From Nocardioides rotundus (GTDB lineage Bacteria > Actinomycetota > Actinomycetes > Propionibacteriales > Nocardioidaceae), in contig NZ_CP082922.1 of NCBI RefSeq assembly GCF_019931675.1, positions 2,805,001-2,869,000 on the forward strand: a DNA stretch of 64,000 nt, in the 5' to 3' direction. A program made the position numbers and the translations under genes. The notes beneath the pieces are model-generated. The model was not told the origin of the DNA and ran no database searches. It was given only the letters and a program-made list of their open reading frames with translations. Below, piece after piece: positions 5,135 through 14,965 of this stretch; positions within the stretch are counted from its first letter, which is position 1, and the number at the start of each line of letters is the position of its first letter.

Positions 5135-6096
5135 GGCGTGTCTCCCAAAGAACGCGGGGTCGAGCCGGGATTGTTGACGCATGTCGCGTTCTGCGGTGCT
5201 GACTGACGCTCAGTGGGCTCGGATCGAGCCGTTGATGCCCTCCTCGGACGGCCAGCGGGGTCGGCCGTTTCGCGATCACCGACAGGTGATCGAGGGCATC
5301 GTCTACCGGTTCCGGACCGGGGTGGCGTGGCGGGACCTGCCCGAGTCCTTCGGCCCGTGGCAGACGATCTGGAAGCGCCACAAGCGGTTCAGCACCGACG
5401 GAACGTGGGACAAGGTACATGCCCGGCTGGTCGCCGAAGCCGACGCCGCCGGGCAGGTCGAGTGGGACGTGTCGGTGGACTCCACGATCAACCGGGCGCA
5501 CCAGCACGCCACCACGTTGAGCCGCATCGAGGTGCCAGCCGGGCGCCGCACGGGGGGCTGAGTCGAACTACAAGGACCTGCGTGCCGAGCCCCCTGACCA
5601 CGCGCTCGGTCGCTCCCGCGGCGGGATGTCGACCAAGATCCACCAACTCGTCGATGGGCAGGGCCGCCCGCTGGTCATCGCGCTCACGCCCGGCCAGGCC
5701 GGCGACTCCCCGATGCTCAAGCCACTCCTGTCGCACCTGGCCGTCAAGCGCCTCGGTCCGGGGCGGCCGCGCACTCGCCCGGACGCCGTGCTCGGCGACA
5801 AGGCCTACTCATCCCGCGCGATCCGCGCCGAGCTGCGATCCCGCCGAGTCAGGGCGGTCATCCCGCAGCCTTCGGACCAGATCGCCCACCGCAAACGGCG
5901 CGGATCGGCCGGCGGTCGTCCGCCCTCATTCGACGCCGTGACCTACAGGGGGCGCAACGTCATCGAGCGGTCCTTCAACGACCACAAGCAATGGCGCGGC
6001 CTGGCCACCCGCTACGACAAGCTCGCGGTGGTCTATCGAGGAGGCGTCGTCCTACGCGCCATCACCATCTGGCTTCGCGAATAGGGAGACACGCCC
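5134..6096 (+). mobile_element. IS5-family insertion sequence (IS427-like)
   Basis: A 963-bp element bounded by perfect 13-bp inverted repeats GGGCGTGTCTCCC at 5134-5146 and its complement at 6084-6096. It is flanked by a direct TA duplication (5132-5133 and 6097-6098), and the rejoined target reads CTAG, the preference known for the IS427 branch of IS5. The single plus-strand transposase is split over two frames. Intact ends and target duplication suggest a recent insertion. It sits between bioN and the amidase and breaks neither coding sequence. Confidence 0.92.
5181..6084 (+). CDS. IS5-family transposase, in two frames
   Basis: The first frame (5181-5561) holds the N-terminal DUF4096-like domain (LTDAQWARIEPLMP, WRDLPESFGPWQTI) and the first catalytic Asp in WDVSVDSTINRAHQH. 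The second frame, open from about 5551 to 6084, holds STKIHQLVDGQGRPL, the second Asp in VLGDKAYSS and the Glu in NVIERSFNDHKQWRGLATRYDK, so all three DDE residues are present. The frames differ by +1 (or -2). They meet at a run of six G at 5552-5557, two bases before the first stop, a natural slippage site. Two-frame transposases of this family are usually expressed by frameshifting, so it may be active. A plain inactivating mutation cannot be excluded. Confidence 0.85.
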
Positions 6097-7562: not shown

Positions 7563-9146
7563 TCAGTCCCGGTGGCGCCGACGCAATCCGAAGGTGAGCC
7601 CGTCGACGAGCGCACCCCAGGACGCCTCGATCACGTTCGCGCCGACGCCGACGGTCACCCAGGAGGTCTCCCCGTCCGCGGTCTCGATCAGCACCCGGGT
7701 GATCGCGTCCGTGCCGTGTCCCTGGTCCAGGATCCGCACCTTGTAGTCGATCAGCTCGAACTTCGCCACCTCGGGGTAGGCCTGGATGATCGCCTCGCGC
7801 AGCGCCGCGTCGAGCGCGTTGACCGGGCCGTTGCCCTCGCCGGTGACGACGTACCGCACCCCGGCAGCCCGCAGCTTGACCGTCGCCTCGGAGACCGCCT
7901 CCTCCCCCGGCCTGGTCTCAGTGATGACCCGCCAGGACTCCACGTCGAAGTACGACGGCCGCGATCCCTCGACCTCCTCGGTCAGCAGCAGCTCGAAGGA
8001 CGCGTCGGCCGCCTCGAAGGTGAAGCCGCGCGACTCCAGCGCCTTGACCCGGTCGGTGATCCGGGTGACCAGCTCCTTGTCGCCGCCGAGGTCGTAGCCG
8101 AGCTCGCGGCCCTTGAGCTCGATCGAGGCCCGGCCGGCCATGTCGGAGACCAGCAGCCGCATGTCGTTGCCGACCCCGGCGGGGTCCATGTGCTGGTAGA
8201 GGTTCGGGTCCACCTTGATCGCGCTCGCGTGCAGGCCGGCCTTGTGCGCGAACGCGCTGGTCCCGACATAGGGCTGTCGCGACGCGGGTGGGAAGTTGGT
8301 GACGTCCGCGACCGCGTGCGCGATCCGGGTGGCGTCGCCCAGCAGCCCGGGCGGCAGCACCCGCTTGTCCAGCTTGAGCTCGAGGTTGGCGACCACGGAG
8401 ACCAGGTCGGCGTTGCCGGTGCGCTCGCCGTACCCGTTGAGGGTGCCCTGCACGTGCGTGGCGCCCGCGTCCACGGCGGCGAGGGTGTTCGCCACCGCGC
8501 AGCCGGTGTCGTTGTGGCAGTGGATGCCGACCCGGACGCCGGTGGAGTCCTTCACGTCGTGCACGACGTCGGCGACCCAGCCCGGCAGCATGCCGCCGTT
8601 GGTGTCACACAGCGCCACCACCTCGGCGCCGGCGTCGTAGGCGGTGCGCAGCACCTCCAGCGCGTAGTCGCGGTTGTCGCGGTAGCCGTCGAAGAAGTGC
8701 TCGGCGTCGAGGAAGACGATCTGGCCCTCCGCCCGCAGGTGGGAGACGGTGTCCCGGATCATCGCCAGGTTCTCCTCCAGCGTGGTCCGCAGCGCGAGCT
8801 CCACGTGCCGGTCGTGGCTCTTGGCGACCAGCGTCACCACCGAGGCACCGGAGTCGCGCAGGGCCGCCACCAGGGGATCGTCGGCGGCCGCGACGCCCGC
8901 GCGCCGGGTGGCGCCGAACGCGGCGAGCCGGGCGTTGCGCAGGTCCAGCTCGTCGGCGGCCCGGCGGAAGAACTCGGTGTCCTTCGGGTTCGCGCCCGGC
9001 CAGCCGCCCTCGATGTAGCCCACGCCCAGCCCGTCCAGGTGGCGCGCGATGCTCAGCTTGTCGGCCACGGAGAGGTTGAGTCCCTCCTGCTGGGCGCCGT
9101 CGCGCAGGGTGGTGTCGTAGACGTGGAAGCCGCCGTGCAGGTCCAT
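7563..9146 (-). CDS. cimA: (R)-citramalate synthase
   Basis: A 527-residue enzyme that condenses pyruvate and acetyl-CoA to citramalate, the entry to the threonine-independent isoleucine route. The DRE-TIM start [18 protein letters not shown] (near residue 9), the metal-binding HCHNDTG near 210 and the long C-terminal regulatory domain ending with [18 protein letters not shown] fit CimA rather than 2-isopropylmalate synthase, which has another N-terminal region. The ATG at 9146 has a GAGAGAAG Shine-Dalgarno sequence. An attenuator with an Ile-rich leader peptide lies directly upstream, matching a role in isoleucine supply. Confidence 0.9.
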
Positions 9147-9182
9147 CGGTCTTCTCTCTGGTGGGGGTCGAACGGTCCGGGC

Positions 9183-9240
9183 AAAGAAAAAACCTCCCGT
9201 GGGGACGAGAGGTCGGCGCATCGGGGAGGTCCCGATGCGC
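9183..9240 (-). promoter_or_regulatory. Attenuator of cimA: two alternative hairpins and an intrinsic terminator
   Basis: In minus-strand order, a perfect 10-bp hairpin (arms 9240-9231 and 9225-9216) begins at the leader stop codon. It is followed by a 9-bp hairpin (9213-9205 with 9200-9192, loop CCCC, one G-U pair) and then six U residues, a textbook Rho-independent terminator. The loop region of the first hairpin contains ACCTCCC, an exact complement of GGGAGGT in the 3' arm of the terminator, so an alternative pairing could disable termination. This is what ribosome-mediated attenuation needs. Confidence 0.85.
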
Positions 9241-9278
9241 TAGGCAATGATGATCACGCGCGAACGCATGCCACCCAT
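9240..9278 (-). CDS. Leader peptide of cimA, MRSRVIIIA
   Basis: A short frame encodes MGGMRSRVIIIA, or MRSRVIIIA if the second ATG at 9269 is used. It has a valine codon and three consecutive isoleucine codons just before the stop, which is embedded in the first attenuator hairpin. Ribosomes stalling at the Ile codons when charged tRNA-Ile is scarce would change the fold downstream and allow cimA transcription. The peptide itself is unlikely to have another function. Which ATG is used is undecided; neither has a clear Shine-Dalgarno sequence. Confidence 0.8.
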   Translation of the reverse strand: MGGMRSRVIIIA

Positions 9279-9313
9279 GGTGCCATGCCCGCCCGGATGG
9301 TGGAACAGGCGTC

Positions 9314-10906
9314 TCAGGGGGAGAGCCAGCCGAAGGGTCCGTGGGCGAACGGCGCCCAGTCCGGCCCGGCCTGCGCGAAGGAGCCGACGAAGCCGGCGGC
9401 GACCAGGACGGCGACGAGGCTGAAGACCCAGACCAGCGGCCGTCGAGCCAGGGGGTGCACCACCCGGCGCAGCGGGCCGCGGACCCGGTGCCCGCCCGGG
9501 CCCAGCCCCAGCGAGCCGGCGAAGAGCACCCCGACGACCCCCATCACGGTCGGAGTGGTGGCCGCGGTGGCGTAGGAGAGCAGGCCCCCGGCGAACCCCA
9601 CCCCCAGACTCCACAGCCCGAGGCCGATCGTGCCCGGAACGGACTGCATGAGGTGCCAGGGCGTGGCGAACAGCGTCTGGAGGTGGTCATACCACTTCCG
9701 CCCGCGCAGCAGCCGCCGGTTCCCGGCCGCGCTGCCCGCCAGCGAACCGCTGCGCAGCAGCCAGGCGGCGATCAGCAGCGTGACGCCGGCGAGGACGGGG
9801 TACGCCGCCACCGCGGCACCCGCGGCCAGGGTCAGCCCGCCGAAGAGCCAGCTGCGTCGCAGCCGCTCCCACGTCGTCACGCGCGGCGGCGCGGTCGGCC
9901 CGACCCATCCGCCCTGGACCGGCGGTGGGACGACCCCGGTGACCGGGCGGGTGCGGAAGGGCTCGGGCTCGTCGACCCGGGTGGGCTCCTCGGGCCGGTA
10001 CCGTGGCGCCGCCTGGAGCGGCATGGTGAACGGCTGCGGATCGGCGAGCCGGACCGGTTCGTCCTCGCCGTCCGCCTCGCGGAAGAACGGGAAGTCCGGC
10101 TCCATGGCCGCGAGCTCCTCGCGCAGCTCGGCCACGGTCGGGCGGCGCTCCGGATCGGGGTCCAGCGCCGCGGCGAGCAGGTCGGCCAGCGGCTCCGGGA
10201 GACCGGAGAGGTCGTGCTCGCCCCGGCGGACCCGGTCCATGATCGCCATGCCCGGCCCGCGACCGAACGGCGGGCGACCGAGACCGGCGTACGCCACGGT
10301 GGCCGCCCAGGAGTGCACGTCGGAGGCGGTGGTGGCGTCGTCGCCGTACAGGATCTCCGGCGCGAGGTAGCCGGGCGTGCCGAGCAGCCAGCCGGTGTGG
10401 GTGAGCTTCGGGTCGTCGGCGACCCGCGCCAGCCCGAAGTCGATGAGGACCGGGTTGCGGCCCTCCATCAGCACGTTGGAGGGCTTGACGTCGCGGTGCA
10501 GGACCCCGCACGCGTGCACGGCCGCCAGCCCCTCGGCGAGCAGTGTCGCCAGGTGGGTCAGCTCCTCCTCGGCGACCGGCCCCTCCTCGGCCACGTGCTC
10601 GTGCAGCGAGAGGCCGGGGACGTAGCGGGTGGCGACGTAGGGGATTGCGCCCCACGGGTCCGCGTCCACGATCTCGGCCACCCGGGGCGAGCGGATCCGG
10701 CTCAGCGAGTTGACCTCCCGGGCCAGGCGGGCCCGGATCTCGTCGTCGCCCACGATGTGCGGCCGGAGCACCTTCAGGGCCACCCGCGGGCCGTCGCCGC
10801 GCCGGGCCAGGTGCACGACGCCCATCCCGCCCTCGCCGATCCGGGTGAGCAGGGTGTAGCCGTCGACGGTCAGGCCCGGAGGTGGCGCCTGAGGGGAAGT
10901 CGTCAC
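9314..10906 (-). CDS. Membrane-anchored Ser/Thr protein kinase (PknB type)
   Basis: A 530-residue Hanks-type kinase. The kinase domain covers about residues 17-275: glycine loop IGEGGMGVV (23-31), ATP-binding Lys45 in ALKVLRP, catalytic HRDVKPSN with Asp139, and DFG with Asp156. A Pro-rich linker with many acidic residues follows to about 355. The C-terminal 170 residues hold four to five hydrophobic segments instead of the single helix and PASTA repeats of PknB, so the kinase is tethered by an unusual multi-pass domain and has no obvious external sensor. The GTG at 10906 lies 6 nt behind a TACCCT box (10918-10913), suggesting a leaderless transcript that starts near the end of nhaA. Confidence 0.9.
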   Translation of the reverse strand: MTTSPQAPPPGLTVDGYTLLTRIGEGGMGVVHLARRGDGPRVALKVLRPHIVGDDEIRARLAREVNSLSRIRSPRVAEIVDADPWGAIPYVATRYVPGLSLHEHVAEEGPVAEEELTHLATLLAEGLAAVHACGVLHRDVKPSNVLMEGRNPVLIDFGLARVADDPKLTHTGWLLGTPGYLAPEILYGDDATTASDVHSWAATVAYAGLGRPPFGRGPGMAIMDRVRRGEHDLSGLPEPLADLLAAALDPDPERRPTVAELREELAAMEPDFPFFREADGEDEPVRLADPQPFTMPLQAAPRYRPEEPTRVDEPEPFRTRPVTGVVPPPVQGGWVGPTAPPRVTTWERLRRSWLFGGLTLAAGAAVAAYPVLAGVTLLIAAWLLRSGSLAGSAAGNRRLLRGRKWYDHLQTLFATPWHLMQSVPGTIGLGLWSLGVGFAGGLLSYATAATTPTVMGVVGVLFAGSLGLGPGGHRVRGPLRRVVHPLARRPLVWVFSLVAVLVAAGFVGSFAQAGPDWAPFAHGPFGWLSP

Positions 10907-10912
10907 CGCACG

Positions 10913-10918
10913 AGGGTA
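10913..10918 (-). promoter_or_regulatory. Leaderless -10 box of the Ser/Thr kinase
   Basis: TACCCT on the minus strand with 6 nt to the GTG at 10906. It lies in the 17-bp gap between nhaA and the kinase gene. Confidence 0.5.
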
Positions 10919-10923
10919 ACGCG

Positions 10924-12783
10924 TCACCTCAGCGGTTCGCCGGACTCCAGCTCGGCGATCAGCGTCTTCGCGTCGTAGGGCCCGACATGGCGGCGGTCGC
11001 CGACGAAGAAGGTCGGCGTGCCGCGCGCGCCGCTCTCCCCTGCGCTCAGCACGTCCCGCTGGACGCGCGCCTCGAGGTCCTCGTCGTCCATGTCGGCGAT
11101 GAACCGCTCGACGTCCAGGTCCAGCTCGACGGCGTAGTCGACCAGGTCGTCGTCCTCGAGGTGGTCCTGGTGGCGGAACAGGTGCTCGTGCATCTCCCAG
11201 TACCTCCCCTGCCGGCCGGCCGCCTCCGCGGCGAGCGCGGCGCGCCAGGCATGCTCGTGCACCTCCAGCGGAAGATGACGTACGACGTAGCGCAGCCGAT
11301 CGCCGAAGTGCCGGCGGATGTCGTCGGCCACGCCGGTCGCGCGCGCACAGAACGGGCACTCGTAGTCGAGGTACTCCACCAGCGTCAGCGGGGCGTCGAT
11401 CTCGCCGCGGATGTGGTCGACGTCCCCCTCGACCGGCTCGCTCAGCACCCGCAGCAGGGCGGCGTCCCGCTGGCCGAGGAAGCGGGCGGCGAAGCGGAAG
11501 ATCGCCCAGCCGAGCAGGCTCGCGAACAGCGCGGAGAGCAGGACGCCCACCCGGGCCTCGTTCTGCAGGCGGCCGGAGTCGAAGGCGAGGGAGACGATCA
11601 GCAGGGAGACGGTGAAGCCGATGCCGGAGAGCGCGCCGCCGGCCATCACGTGACCGAAGCCGACGCCCTGCGGCAGCCTGCCCCAGCCCAGCTTGACGCT
11701 GCCGAAGGCGCCCAGGGTGATGCCGATCGTCTTGCCCAGCACCAGGCCGGCGACGATGCCCCAGGTGAGCCGAGAGGAGAGGGCGTCCTGCAGCACGCCG
11801 TCGCGCAGGTCCACGCCGGCGTTGGCGAGGGCGAAGATCGGCACGATCACGTAGCCGCTCGGCACGTGCAGCGCCTCCTGCAGCCGCTCGTTGACCGAGA
11901 TCGCCCGGGTGAGGCTACGCCGGGCCGAGCGCTGCATGTCCGGCATCGGCGACTGCCGGAACGCGCGGAACCGCAGGGTCGCCTCCTCCACGTCGCTGCG
12001 GCGCGGGTCCAGCGCCGGCACCAGCAGGCCCGACACCATCCCGGCGATCGAGGCGTGCAGGCCCGACTCCACCGTGGCCGCCCAGAGCAGCACGACGACC
12101 AGGACGTACGGCGCGGCCTGCCACACGCAGAACCGGTCGAGCAGGACCAGCGCGACCAGGCAGGCCGCCGCCACCAGCATCGGCACGACCTTGAGGTCCT
12201 CGGAGTAGACCAACCCGATCACCGAGACCGCGACGATGTCGTCGATCACCGTCAGCGTGAGCAGGAAGATCCGCAGCTGGGTGGAGACCCGCGGCCCCAC
12301 CAGGGCCATCACGCCCAGCAGGAAGGCGGTGTCGGTGCCGATCACCGCGCCCCAGCCGTTGGCGGCCTCCCCACGGGAGTTGAGGGAGAGGAAGATCAGC
12401 GCCGGGACGATCATCCCCGTGATCCCGGCGACCAGCGGGATCACGATCCGGCGCCGGTCGGTGAGCTCGCCGATGGCGAACTCGCGTCGCACCTCCAGCC
12501 CGATGACGAAGAAGAACACCACCATCAGGGCGTTGTTGATCCAGTGGCTGAGGTCCATCGACATGGCCCAGCCGCCGACCCGGATCTCGGCGACGGTGTG
12601 CCACAGGTCGAAGTAGCTCTCCGACCACGGCGAGTTCGCCCAGACCAGGGCGACCACCACCGCGACCACCATCAGGGCGGCCGACCCGGACTCGGTGTGC
12701 ATGAAGTGCCGCATCCCCGAGCGCAGCTGTCCCGCCTGCGAGGACGGGCCGGACGTGGTGTCTGTCGCGGTGTCTCCGCTCAT
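10924..12783 (-). CDS. nhaA: Na+/H+ antiporter NhaA fused to a DsbA-like thioredoxin domain
   Basis: A 619-residue fusion. Residues 1 to about 430 are NhaA, with about a dozen membrane helices, the double-Asp region [17 protein letters not shown], and [15 protein letters not shown]. Residues about 440-619 are a DsbA-type thioredoxin fold with the motif C476-P-F-C479 and the cis-Pro segment [12 protein letters not shown]. NhaA alone is about 390 residues in enterobacteria. The antiporter removes Na+ in exchange for protons; the appended domain could carry out thiol-disulfide or peroxide chemistry. Which side of the membrane it faces is not certain. The ATG overlaps the ilvE stop (ATGA), giving an unexpected coupling to amino acid synthesis. 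Confidence 0.92.
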
Positions 12784-13859
12784 CCGACCCGGTGCATCCA
12801 GCCGAAGGAGTCCTCGGCCCGGCCGTACTGGATGTCCACCAGGCTCTGCCGGATCCTGCCGGTCAGCTCGGTGGAGGCCGGCGCCGGCACGGTGCCCGCG
12901 GCCGACCGGAGCTCACCGACGGGCGTGACCACCGCGGCGGTGCCGCAGGCGAAGATCTCCACGATCTCCCCGGACTCCACGCCGGTGCGCCACTCGTCGA
13001 TGGAGAACCTGCGCTCCTCGACCTGGTGGCCCATCTTGCCGGCCAGCTCGATCACCGAGGCGCGGGTGATGCCCTCGAGGATCGTGCCGGTCGCGGGGGT
13101 GACGATCCGGCCGTCGGCGAAGACGTAGTACATGTTCATGCCGCCGAGCTCCTCGACGTACTTCCCCTCCTGGGAGTCCAGGAAGACCACCTGGTCGCAG
13201 CCGTGGGCCATCGCCTCCTGCTGCGCGACCAGGGAGGAGGCGTAGTTGCCGCCCGTCTTCGCCGCGCCCATGCCGCCGCGACCGGCGCGGGTGTACTCCT
13301 CGGTGAGCCAGAGGCTGACCGGCTTCACGCCGCCCTTGAAGTAGGCGCCGGCCGGCGAGGCGATCACCATGAAGGTCACGTGCTGGGCCGGCCGCACCCC
13401 GAGGAACGCCTCGCTGGCGAACATGAACGGACGGACGTAGAGGCTCTTCTCCCCCGCGTTGTCCGGCACCCAGCGCCGGTCGGTGTCGACCAGCGCGTCG
13501 ACGGCCTGGACGAAGTCCTCGACCGGCAGCTCGGGGAAGGCCAGCCGCTGGGAGGAGCGGATCATCCGCTTCGCGTTCTCCTCGGGCCGGAAGGTCCACA
13601 CCGACCCGTCCTCGTGCCGGTAGGCCTTCATCCCCTCGAAGGTCTCCTGGGCGTAGTGCAGCACCGCGGTCGCCGGGTCCAGCGACAGCGGGCCGTAGGC
13701 CTCGATCCGGGCGTTGTGCCACCCCTGCTCCGGCGTCCACTCCACCAGCAGCATGTGGTCGGTGAAGTGGGTGCCGAAGCCGGGGTTGGCCAGGATCTCC
13801 GCCACCTCGGCGTCGGTGCGGGGGCTCGCGGAGGGGGTGATGGAGATGTCGAGCGTCAT
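12780..13859 (-). CDS. ilvE: Branched-chain amino acid aminotransferase
   Basis: A 359-residue PLP enzyme of fold type IV that makes the last step to Ile, Leu and Val using glutamate. Visible features are [18 protein letters not shown] near residue 91, the PLP-lysine region [14 protein letters not shown] near 200, and the [20 protein letters not shown] segment near 237 that closes the pocket. Its length fits the long-type IlvE of actinobacteria. A TAGGTT box (13871-13866) lies 6 nt before the ATG with no Shine-Dalgarno sequence, so it is probably leaderless. The stop overlaps nhaA. Confidence 0.96.
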
Positions 13860-13865
13860 GAGGGC

Positions 13866-13871
13866 AACCTA
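13866..13871 (-). promoter_or_regulatory. Leaderless -10 box of ilvE
   Basis: TAGGTT on the minus strand with 6 nt to the ATG at 13859. ilvE and the overlapped nhaA could share this start. Confidence 0.55.
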
Positions 13872-13900
13872 TCCGGTCCAGCGGGCGTGCAGGGGCGGGG

Positions 13901-14965
13901 TCAGCCGCCTACTCGCGCCGCGATCGCGTCGCCCACCTCGGAGGTACGGCGCTCGCCTCCGGACCGCCGCTCGGCCAGGTCCGCCAGCACCGCGGACTCG
14001 ACAGTCCGCGCGGCCTCGGCGTGGCCGAGGTGGTCCAGCAGCAGGCTCGCGGAGAGGATGGCCGCGGTCGGGTCCGCCTTCTGCTGACCGGCGATGTCGG
14101 GCGCCGAGCCGTGCACCGGCTCGAACATCGAGGGCGCGGTCCGGTCCGGGTTGATGTTGCCGGACGCCGCCAGGCCGATCCCGCCGGTCACGGCCGCGGC
14201 CAGGTCGGTGATGATGTCGCCGAAGAGGTTGTCGGTGACGATCACGTCGAACCGCGACGGGTTCACCGTCATGTGGATCGTGGCGGCGTCGATGTGCATG
14301 TAGTCGGTGGTGACGTCGGGGTACTCCTGGGCCACGGCGTCGAAGACCCGCCACCACAGGGAGCCGGCGTGCACCAGCACGTTGGTCTTGTGGACCAGGG
14401 TGAGGTGCCGGCGGGGTCGCCGCTGGGCGCGCTCGAAGGCGTCGCGCACGACCCGCTCCACGCCGTAGGCGGTGTTGAGGCTGACCTCGGTGGCGACCTC
14501 GGCCGGGGTGTCGGCGCGGAGTCGGCCGCCGTTGCCGGTGTAGGGCCCCTCGGTGCCCTCGCGGGCCACCACGAAGTCCACCTCGCCGGGGTCGGCGAGC
14601 GGGCCGGGCTGGCCGGGGAAGATCCGGCTGGGGCGCAGGTTGACGTAGTGGTCGAACTCGAAGCGCAGCTTGAGCAGCAGTCCCCGCTCGAGGATGCCCG
14701 GGGGCAGGTTCGGGTCGTTGGGCTTGCCGCCGACGGCTCCGAGCAGGATGGCGTCGTGCTCCCGGATCTCGGCGAGCACGGAGTCCGGCAGCACCTCTCC
14801 GGTCGAGAGGTAGCGCTCGGCGCCGAGGTCGTAGGTCGTCTGCTCGATGGCGACCGGCGAGACCGCGGTGAGGACCTTCAAGGCCTCCGCGGTCACCTCC
14901 GGGCCGATCCCGTCGCCGGGAACGACGGCGAGCCTGACGGGGTCCTGCTGCTGCTGAGTCGTCAT
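13901..14965 (-). CDS. leuB: 3-isopropylmalate dehydrogenase
   Basis: A 354-residue NAD-dependent beta-decarboxylating dehydrogenase in leucine synthesis. The N-terminal [19 protein letters not shown], the substrate-loop region [18 protein letters not shown], the metal-binding aspartates in [20 protein letters not shown] and the NAD-binding end [19 protein letters not shown] are all present. The segment NLRPSR with [12 protein letters not shown] is the LeuB form rather than isocitrate or tartrate dehydrogenase. No Shine-Dalgarno sequence precedes the ATG. The upstream 41-codon frame ends 10 nt before it, so coupling or a leaderless start from TAACGT (14978-14973) are both possible. A leader-peptide frame lies about 380 nt upstream. 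Confidence 0.95.

Follow-up and report, generated by a model that had tools for sequence, protein, structure and literature searches.

In the trp-type attenuators of E. coli, a leader peptide with cognate codons is followed by a hairpin at the leader end and by a terminator. The element described here, located upstream of the citramalate synthase gene cimA of Nocardioides rotundus, likewise has a cognate-codon leader, a hairpin at the leader end and a terminator, and differs from the E. coli type in that no 2:3 antiterminator is conserved, the first hairpin (P1) stands 0-2 nt from the terminator and the leader appears to start leaderless. The accessible part of PMC8079986 describes two S. lividans leaders, LeuL2 before leuS (MRAVRLLLSEPR) and IlvL before ilvBHC (MRTRILVLGKRVG), which resemble the cimA element in having a tiny ORF, a run of cognate codons, a hairpin and a U-rich terminator; these sister leaders are reported there to be leaderless, as the cimA leader probably is, whereas the gene here is cimA and the codons of the run are Ile only. 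For Corynebacterium ilvB-II and M. tuberculosis ilvB1, the excerpts of PMC10272879 and PMC13236596, both of which deal with ilvB, describe a similar combination of a uORF with branched-chain codons, an intrinsic terminator and a decision made by ribosome position. In those systems an antiterminator is drawn and the codons are mixed, whereas here none is conserved and the codons are Ile only.

The same excerpt of PMC13236596 reports that changing LVVI to AAAA in the M. tuberculosis ilvB1 leader abolished the response, which counts for an attenuator reading of such leaders, and replacing codons of the S. coelicolor ilvB leader was reportedly without effect (PMC1262725, in part), which counts against it. 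The available section of PMC1262725 treats trp, cys, ilvB, leuA, leuS, trpS and ileS elements and that of PMC8079986 eight leaders, none of them for cimA; cimA is not mentioned in the former section, nor citramalate in either. Among the titles and abstracts of the open-licence literature no report of leader control of cimA or citramalate synthase was found, nor was there an Rfam record.

In the window, i.e., the whole 64,000-nt stretch of N. rotundus DNA that was analysed, the region upstream of cimA is very probably a transcription attenuator that depends on the ribosome and controls cimA according to tRNA-Ile charging. This isoleucine-attenuator reading of the cimA leader is strongly supported by sequence comparison, from which termination in the cell, a response to Ile and the direction of that response are predicted. 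The features of the locus are as follows:

9277..9285, minus strand: extended -10 box TGGCACCAT of the putative leader promoter, by its match to the aligned copies
9240..9269, minus strand: leader ORF MRSRVIIIA*, read directly; probably leaderless
9246..9254, minus strand: regulatory Ile codons ATC ATC ATT, read directly and with Ile kept at the matching codons of other copies
9216..9240, minus strand: hairpin P1, 10 bp, starting at the G of TAG, by reading, fold and covariation
9187..9214, minus strand: intrinsic terminator, one base from P1, by terminator search, fold and comparison of copies
9151..9159, minus strand: purine-rich AGAGAGAAG, likely ribosome-binding site of cimA, by reading
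7563..9146, minus strand: cimA, citramalate synthase, the putatively controlled gene (TIGR00977, 636.9 bits against a curated cut-off of 450)
9314-14965, minus strand: leuB, ilvE, an NhaA antiporter with a thioredoxin-like C-terminal part and a kinase-like gene, just upstream of cimA

The initial annotation had described a leader peptide MRSRVIIIA with three consecutive Ile codons, a hairpin beginning at its stop codon, a 9-bp terminator with six U residues and cimA as the downstream gene, and all four descriptions were borne out. The leader codons (9269-9240, minus strand) are ATG CGT TCG CGC GTG ATC ATC ATT GCC TAG, so that a short ORF carries consecutive codons for Ile, the product amino acid, near its stop codon (TAG, 9242-9240), as in leaderless attenuators. 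P1 has the arms and loop GCGCATCGGG/ACCTC/CCCGATGCGC (9240-9216), and the terminator hairpin GACCTCTCGT/CCCC/ACGGGAGGTT (9214-9191) has a stem of 9 bp plus one G-U; the six T stand at 9192-9187, the first one or two of them pairing within the terminator stem. This intrinsic terminator between leader and gene, also expected of a leaderless attenuator and seen here in both sequence and covariation, was the only hit of a terminator search over both strands of 801 bp, where 0.3 would be expected. The T-run ends at 9187, 40 nt from the cimA start, and AGAGAGAAG lies within these 40 nt. The end given in the initial annotation, 9278, implies an ATG three codons upstream of 9269; ATG 9269, 7 nt from the -10 box TGGCACCAT, is favoured as the leader start because the distance from -10 box to start is conserved.

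The 96-nt region was predicted to fold into P1, the terminator and a weaker 5' hairpin, with an energy of -47.5 kcal/mol; shuffled versions averaged -31.2, and none of 200 was as low (z -4.6). An alignment of 42 copies (A1; 24 from the loci of a CimA scan, 18 from a genus search or the window's own genome) was used to build a covariance model, R1. In A1, 95.2% of cells pair, nine of the 16 pairs vary on both sides and 56 cells are two-sided. Four of five covariation measures were reached by 0 of 500 shuffles and the fifth (further pair types, 22) by 33 of 500; sliding the columns by 1-3 lowered the pairing to 39-57%. A second alignment, A2, whose 69 distinct rows were fitted to R1 and are thus biased toward the model, had 95.7% of cells paired and 115 two-sided cells, its further pair types being reached by 154 of 500 shuffles. 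P1 covaries across copies. Among 91 copies, P1 and the terminator are separated by 0, 1 and 2 nt in 49, 36 and 6, respectively, and in 73 the first base of P1 is also the final base of the stop-codon position. The leader continues through P1 in some families and ends in RRAG or similar, the distance from the Ile codons to P1 being kept.

The promoter and the codon run were analysed in 104 distinct copies, obtained from 117 R1 matches (for one of them, L193, the gene behind it was unchecked). A -10 hexamer stood 5-8 nt before an in-frame ATG or GTG in 95 of the 104, compared with 3.4% in shuffled upstream sequence, the spacing being 6-7 nt in 92. In the aligned copies the bases preceding the -10 were T (.97), G (.93) and G (.85), which the search pattern had not demanded; TGG was followed by C (.92) and then by a fixed A and T. 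No -35 box was conserved in copies aligned on the -10. A leaderless transcript fits the 6-7 nt spacing in 92 of 104 copies, and transcription would thus begin at or next to the leader start codon; the sequence gave no sign of a start downstream of the leader. Upstream of the leader promoter, an inverted repeat GAGAC-N2-6-GTCTC was present in 12 of the 47 genus sequences, where shuffles would give 0.05, among them L125, L133, L138, L140 and L143, and may be a candidate operator; the window has GAGAC only, at ~9300-9320.

The three codons preceding the last sense codon encode Ile in 68, 99 and 103 of the 104 copies, respectively; because two Ile codons were required of its training copies, R1 favours Ile among its matches. 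Of the 202 Ile codons at the two core positions, 106 are ATT, compared with 21 of 1529 in cimA genes; ATT may be chosen to slow reading.

The CimA scan of genome contigs gave 80 loci, and in many of the actinobacterial ones Ile-rich short ORFs, followed by a GCGCG hairpin and a T-run, were read before cimA. R1 matched 32 of the 80 at E ≤ 5e-10, all just upstream of cimA and eight of them outside the training set. L063 had a single weak match (E 0.035) located elsewhere than just upstream of cimA, and nothing was found by R1 in the other 47 loci, including Nitriliruptoria, Paenibacillus, Nitrospinae and other Acidimicrobiia; L042, L056 and L059 start inside cimA and could not show the element. 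L055 (Nitriliruptorales), missed by R1, has an ORF ending in TIIIRPLP* that stops 119 nt before the CimA match and may be a distant relative or a chance occurrence.

Of 118 genomes searched in the genus, 110 have cimA, and R1 adjoins it in 104 of these, at a distance of 26-122 nt upstream of the first CimA codon matched (18 of the 42 training copies of R1 come from the genus or the window). This recurrence of Ile run and terminator beside cimA takes the element beyond chance. In one of the other six cimA-bearing genomes (G031) cimA is cut; the upstream region is readable in the remaining five and was found to contain no Ile leader, which counts against the attenuator reading. Among the eight genus genomes without cimA, four had a match before leuS only and four had none. 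In the class (216 genomes), CimA was found in 171 genomes and R1 in 134, and among the matches listed R1 lies 28-227 nt upstream of at least 108 of the 150 cimA genes listed. Of the 42 class cimA genes without a listed match, 19 were read: that of G290 carries the element (L216) and the other 18 do not. No cimA element was found in families f19 and f27 among the upstream regions read and the matches listed, which also counts against the attenuator reading; in f27 and in G159, cimA directly follows a gene that reads as ilvE. In the phylum outside the class, 16 genomes (119 searched in all) had R1 at E 1e-3 or better, with 19 matches. Among the 14 of these that were read, one (L273) was a cimA element, with the leader MSASIIIIA*. 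The isoleucine-type leader and terminator of the initial annotation are thereby conserved far beyond the genus.

The same layout occurs before other genes. R1 matches away from cimA were present in 34 genus genomes, and the 10 that were read all precede leuS and have Leu runs, e.g., MRRILLLI*, MCRTLLLS* and MQHALLLA* (leuS was called by a motif in nine cases and by reading frame in L157; L158 by TIGR00396, 941.3 bits). These leaders have P1 and the abutting terminator in common with the cimA leaders, and their final run codon is CTT in 10 of 10, whereas CTT accounts for 93 of the 5191 Leu codons of cimA genes. Outside the 10 read, a strong off-cimA match of the genus lies at a contig end (G004:C9). 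In the class, 42 matches lay off the listed cimA rows, some possibly adjoining further cimA genes; 19 of them were read and preceded ilvB (11), leuA (2), leuS (1), cimA (1), an ACT-like gene (2) and a threonine dehydratase-like gene (2). Outside the class, the 14 read preceded ilvB (9), leuA (1) and cimA (1), with three before no assigned gene. The ilvB leaders have mixed branched-chain codons and the leuS and leuA leaders Leu codons; in six ilvB leaders the -10 rule gave no leader start. The ACT-like proteins (~105 aa, PF13291 below cut-off) are preceded by MFTPRIII* in L198 (G215) and MFALVIIM* in L207 (G291), in the same layout. In family f19, MQLHLMAIT* (L211, G262) and MPQHLMIIN* (L212, G280) stand with the same hairpins before the threonine dehydratase-like gene.

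A codon run that follows the downstream gene on a common layout is the strongest evidence for amino-acid sensing. More tentatively, the copies might represent a phylum-wide interchangeable cassette, made up of a leaderless ORF, a gene-matched codon run (Ile for cimA and the threonine dehydratase-like gene, Leu for leuS and leuA, mixed branched-chain for ilvB), one further codon, a stop-fused GCGC-based hairpin and a touching terminator, in which termination would be decided by the position of the ribosome on the hairpin and no antiterminator would be involved.

Under the preferred reading, attenuation of cimA by tRNA-Ile charging, transcription would begin at or next to ATG 9269 and the leader would be translated from a leaderless 5' end. 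With ample Ile-tRNA the ribosome would pass ATC ATC ATT and leave at TAG, after which P1 and the abutting terminator would fold and RNA polymerase would stop ~40 nt before cimA. With scarce Ile-tRNA the ribosome would wait on the Ile codons while the polymerase continued into cimA, and the readthrough would lead to more citramalate synthase and more isoleucine. When centred on the first, second and third Ile codon and the stop codon, a 26-nt ribosome footprint, adopted from the part of PMC13236596 available, covers ~1, 4, 7 and 10 nt of the 10-nt P1 5' arm, respectively, and P1 would therefore be the part that feels the ribosome. P1 may be needed for full termination and be disturbed by the stall; it may form only with the ribosome held back and then hamper the terminator next to it; or the P1 strand, once free, may capture the terminator in the window copy, as the initial annotation proposed.

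This last proposal is a more specific version of the attenuator reading, in which P1 is opened by a stall and ACCTCCC then pairs with the terminator 3' arm; it is improbable as an account of the element. ACCTCCC is the exact complement of GGGAGGT, as had been claimed, but only five of its seven nt are in the P1 loop, where the initial annotation had placed the whole segment; the other two are in the P1 stem. In the window, shuffles give -9.7 for the duplex of this segment with the terminator 3' arm, and the real sequence gives -15.6 (p 0.01). The equilibrium value of the terminator, 0.97 when nothing is masked, falls to 0.21 once 12 nt (the stop codon and 9 nt more) are masked, but is 0.77 for a mask of 9 nt and 0.96 for one of 15 nt. 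As long as the 3' arm has yet to be made, pairing of the terminator 5' arm rises from 0.13 in the free state to 0.32-0.37 with P1 masked, also in line with the proposal. The pairing was tested further in 91 sequences picked by a two-Ile pattern (L198, L207 and L212 among them are not before cimA), all of which fold as two plain hairpins. Here, the predicted loss of the terminator (<0.5 with 12 nt masked) recurred in only three, L001 (the window), L151 and L177, and masking the P1 5' arm left the terminator in place in most copies (mean 0.93-0.96 at equilibrium), which counts against the attenuator reading more generally. P1 paired with its own terminator 3' arm at -10.84 kcal/mol and with swapped partners at -10.90 (p 0.62), while the positive controls gave z -20 for P1 and z -15 for the terminator; split by leader type, p was 0.74 and 0.083, the latter for the 26 copies whose leader runs into P1. 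Compared with shuffles (-9.44), pairing over all 91 was somewhat stronger, with 20% of copies at p ≤0.05, and in 26 dissimilar copies it stood out little, z being -0.27 and -0.57 against -0.06 and -0.20 in reversed controls. P1 with the terminator 3' arm was thus rejected as a conserved antiterminator, and the lack of one is a further point against the attenuator reading. Pairing of P1 with the terminator 5' arm, which was weak and no better than shuffles or swaps, was also rejected, as was a GACC or GGAC loop motif, whose frequency was the same as in shuffles. The ACCTCCC pairing can form in the window copy, where it may act as an antiterminator of the trp type, and is no conserved part of the family. 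No single pairing thus explains release in the family.

A kinase-like gene on the same strand ends at 9314, and the hairpins could be its plain terminator, with the Ile run unread; given that the conserved extended -10 box sits between that gene and the terminator, and that the Ile run, the rare ATT and the codon swap before leuS, leuA and ilvB would be left unexplained, this is very unlikely. The conserved Ile-Ile-Ile might instead belong to a small functional peptide that is itself under conservation, but its remaining residues and length vary, the synonymous codon ATT is selected, and Leu or mixed codons stand for Ile before other genes, making such a peptide extremely unlikely. T-boxes are predicted before ileS in several actinobacteria, according to the section of PMC1262725 available, so that a riboswitch or T-box binding isoleucine or tRNA-Ile directly might be considered; with no Rfam family, and hence no T-box or known riboswitch, over 8900-9600 at E up to 1, and with two plain hairpins in all 91 copies, it is scarcely credible.

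The genome also has ilvA (TIGR01127, 442.6 bits; cut-off 378.75), and the citramalate route is therefore additional to the threonine route. A pattern search of the ilvA upstream region of this genome found no Ile/Leu/Val-rich ORF ending there, so the sensor would sit on the citramalate branch only. The initial annotation had called the attenuator a dedicated sensor for this pathway, which agrees with its place in this genome and is too narrow for relatives, where the same device serves leuS, leuA and ilvB. In the genus, 36 genomes with the attenuator were tested, and ilvA exceeded the TIGR01127 cut-off in 31 of them, against one of five genomes without it (Fisher p 0.006); the 36 are not a random draw and the five may be few independent events. 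The class counts, 80 of 108 with and eight of 42 without, differ wholly on account of f19 and f27 (p 1.0 without those families). These numbers hint that cimA is attenuated where the citramalate route is optional. If the attenuator reading is true, the pyruvate (citramalate) route to isoleucine has its own Ile-tRNA gauge, apart from the threonine route, in much of Actinomycetota. The many copies, together with the Leu and mixed sister versions, are natural controls that make an unsettled point testable: codon changes in the ilvB-type leaders reportedly mattered in M. tuberculosis and not in S. coelicolor, and this layout conserves no antiterminator. The element would be useful for engineering isoleucine or citramalate production in actinobacteria.

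In f19, TIGR01127 was matched in one of 17 genomes, and the proteins of L211 and L212 fall below every curated cut-off; their Ile leaders raise the idea that f19 may carry the Ile sensor on ilvA instead of cimA. In L152-L155 (G027, G035, G042 and G099) the leader is absent and a CimA variant starts with DGMQQEGLNPTVADK; none of these genomes has ilvA over the TIGR01127 cut-off. Elsewhere in the window, on the plus strand at 5181-6084, two ORFs (126 and 152 aa), each in its own frame, resemble a transposase in two pieces.
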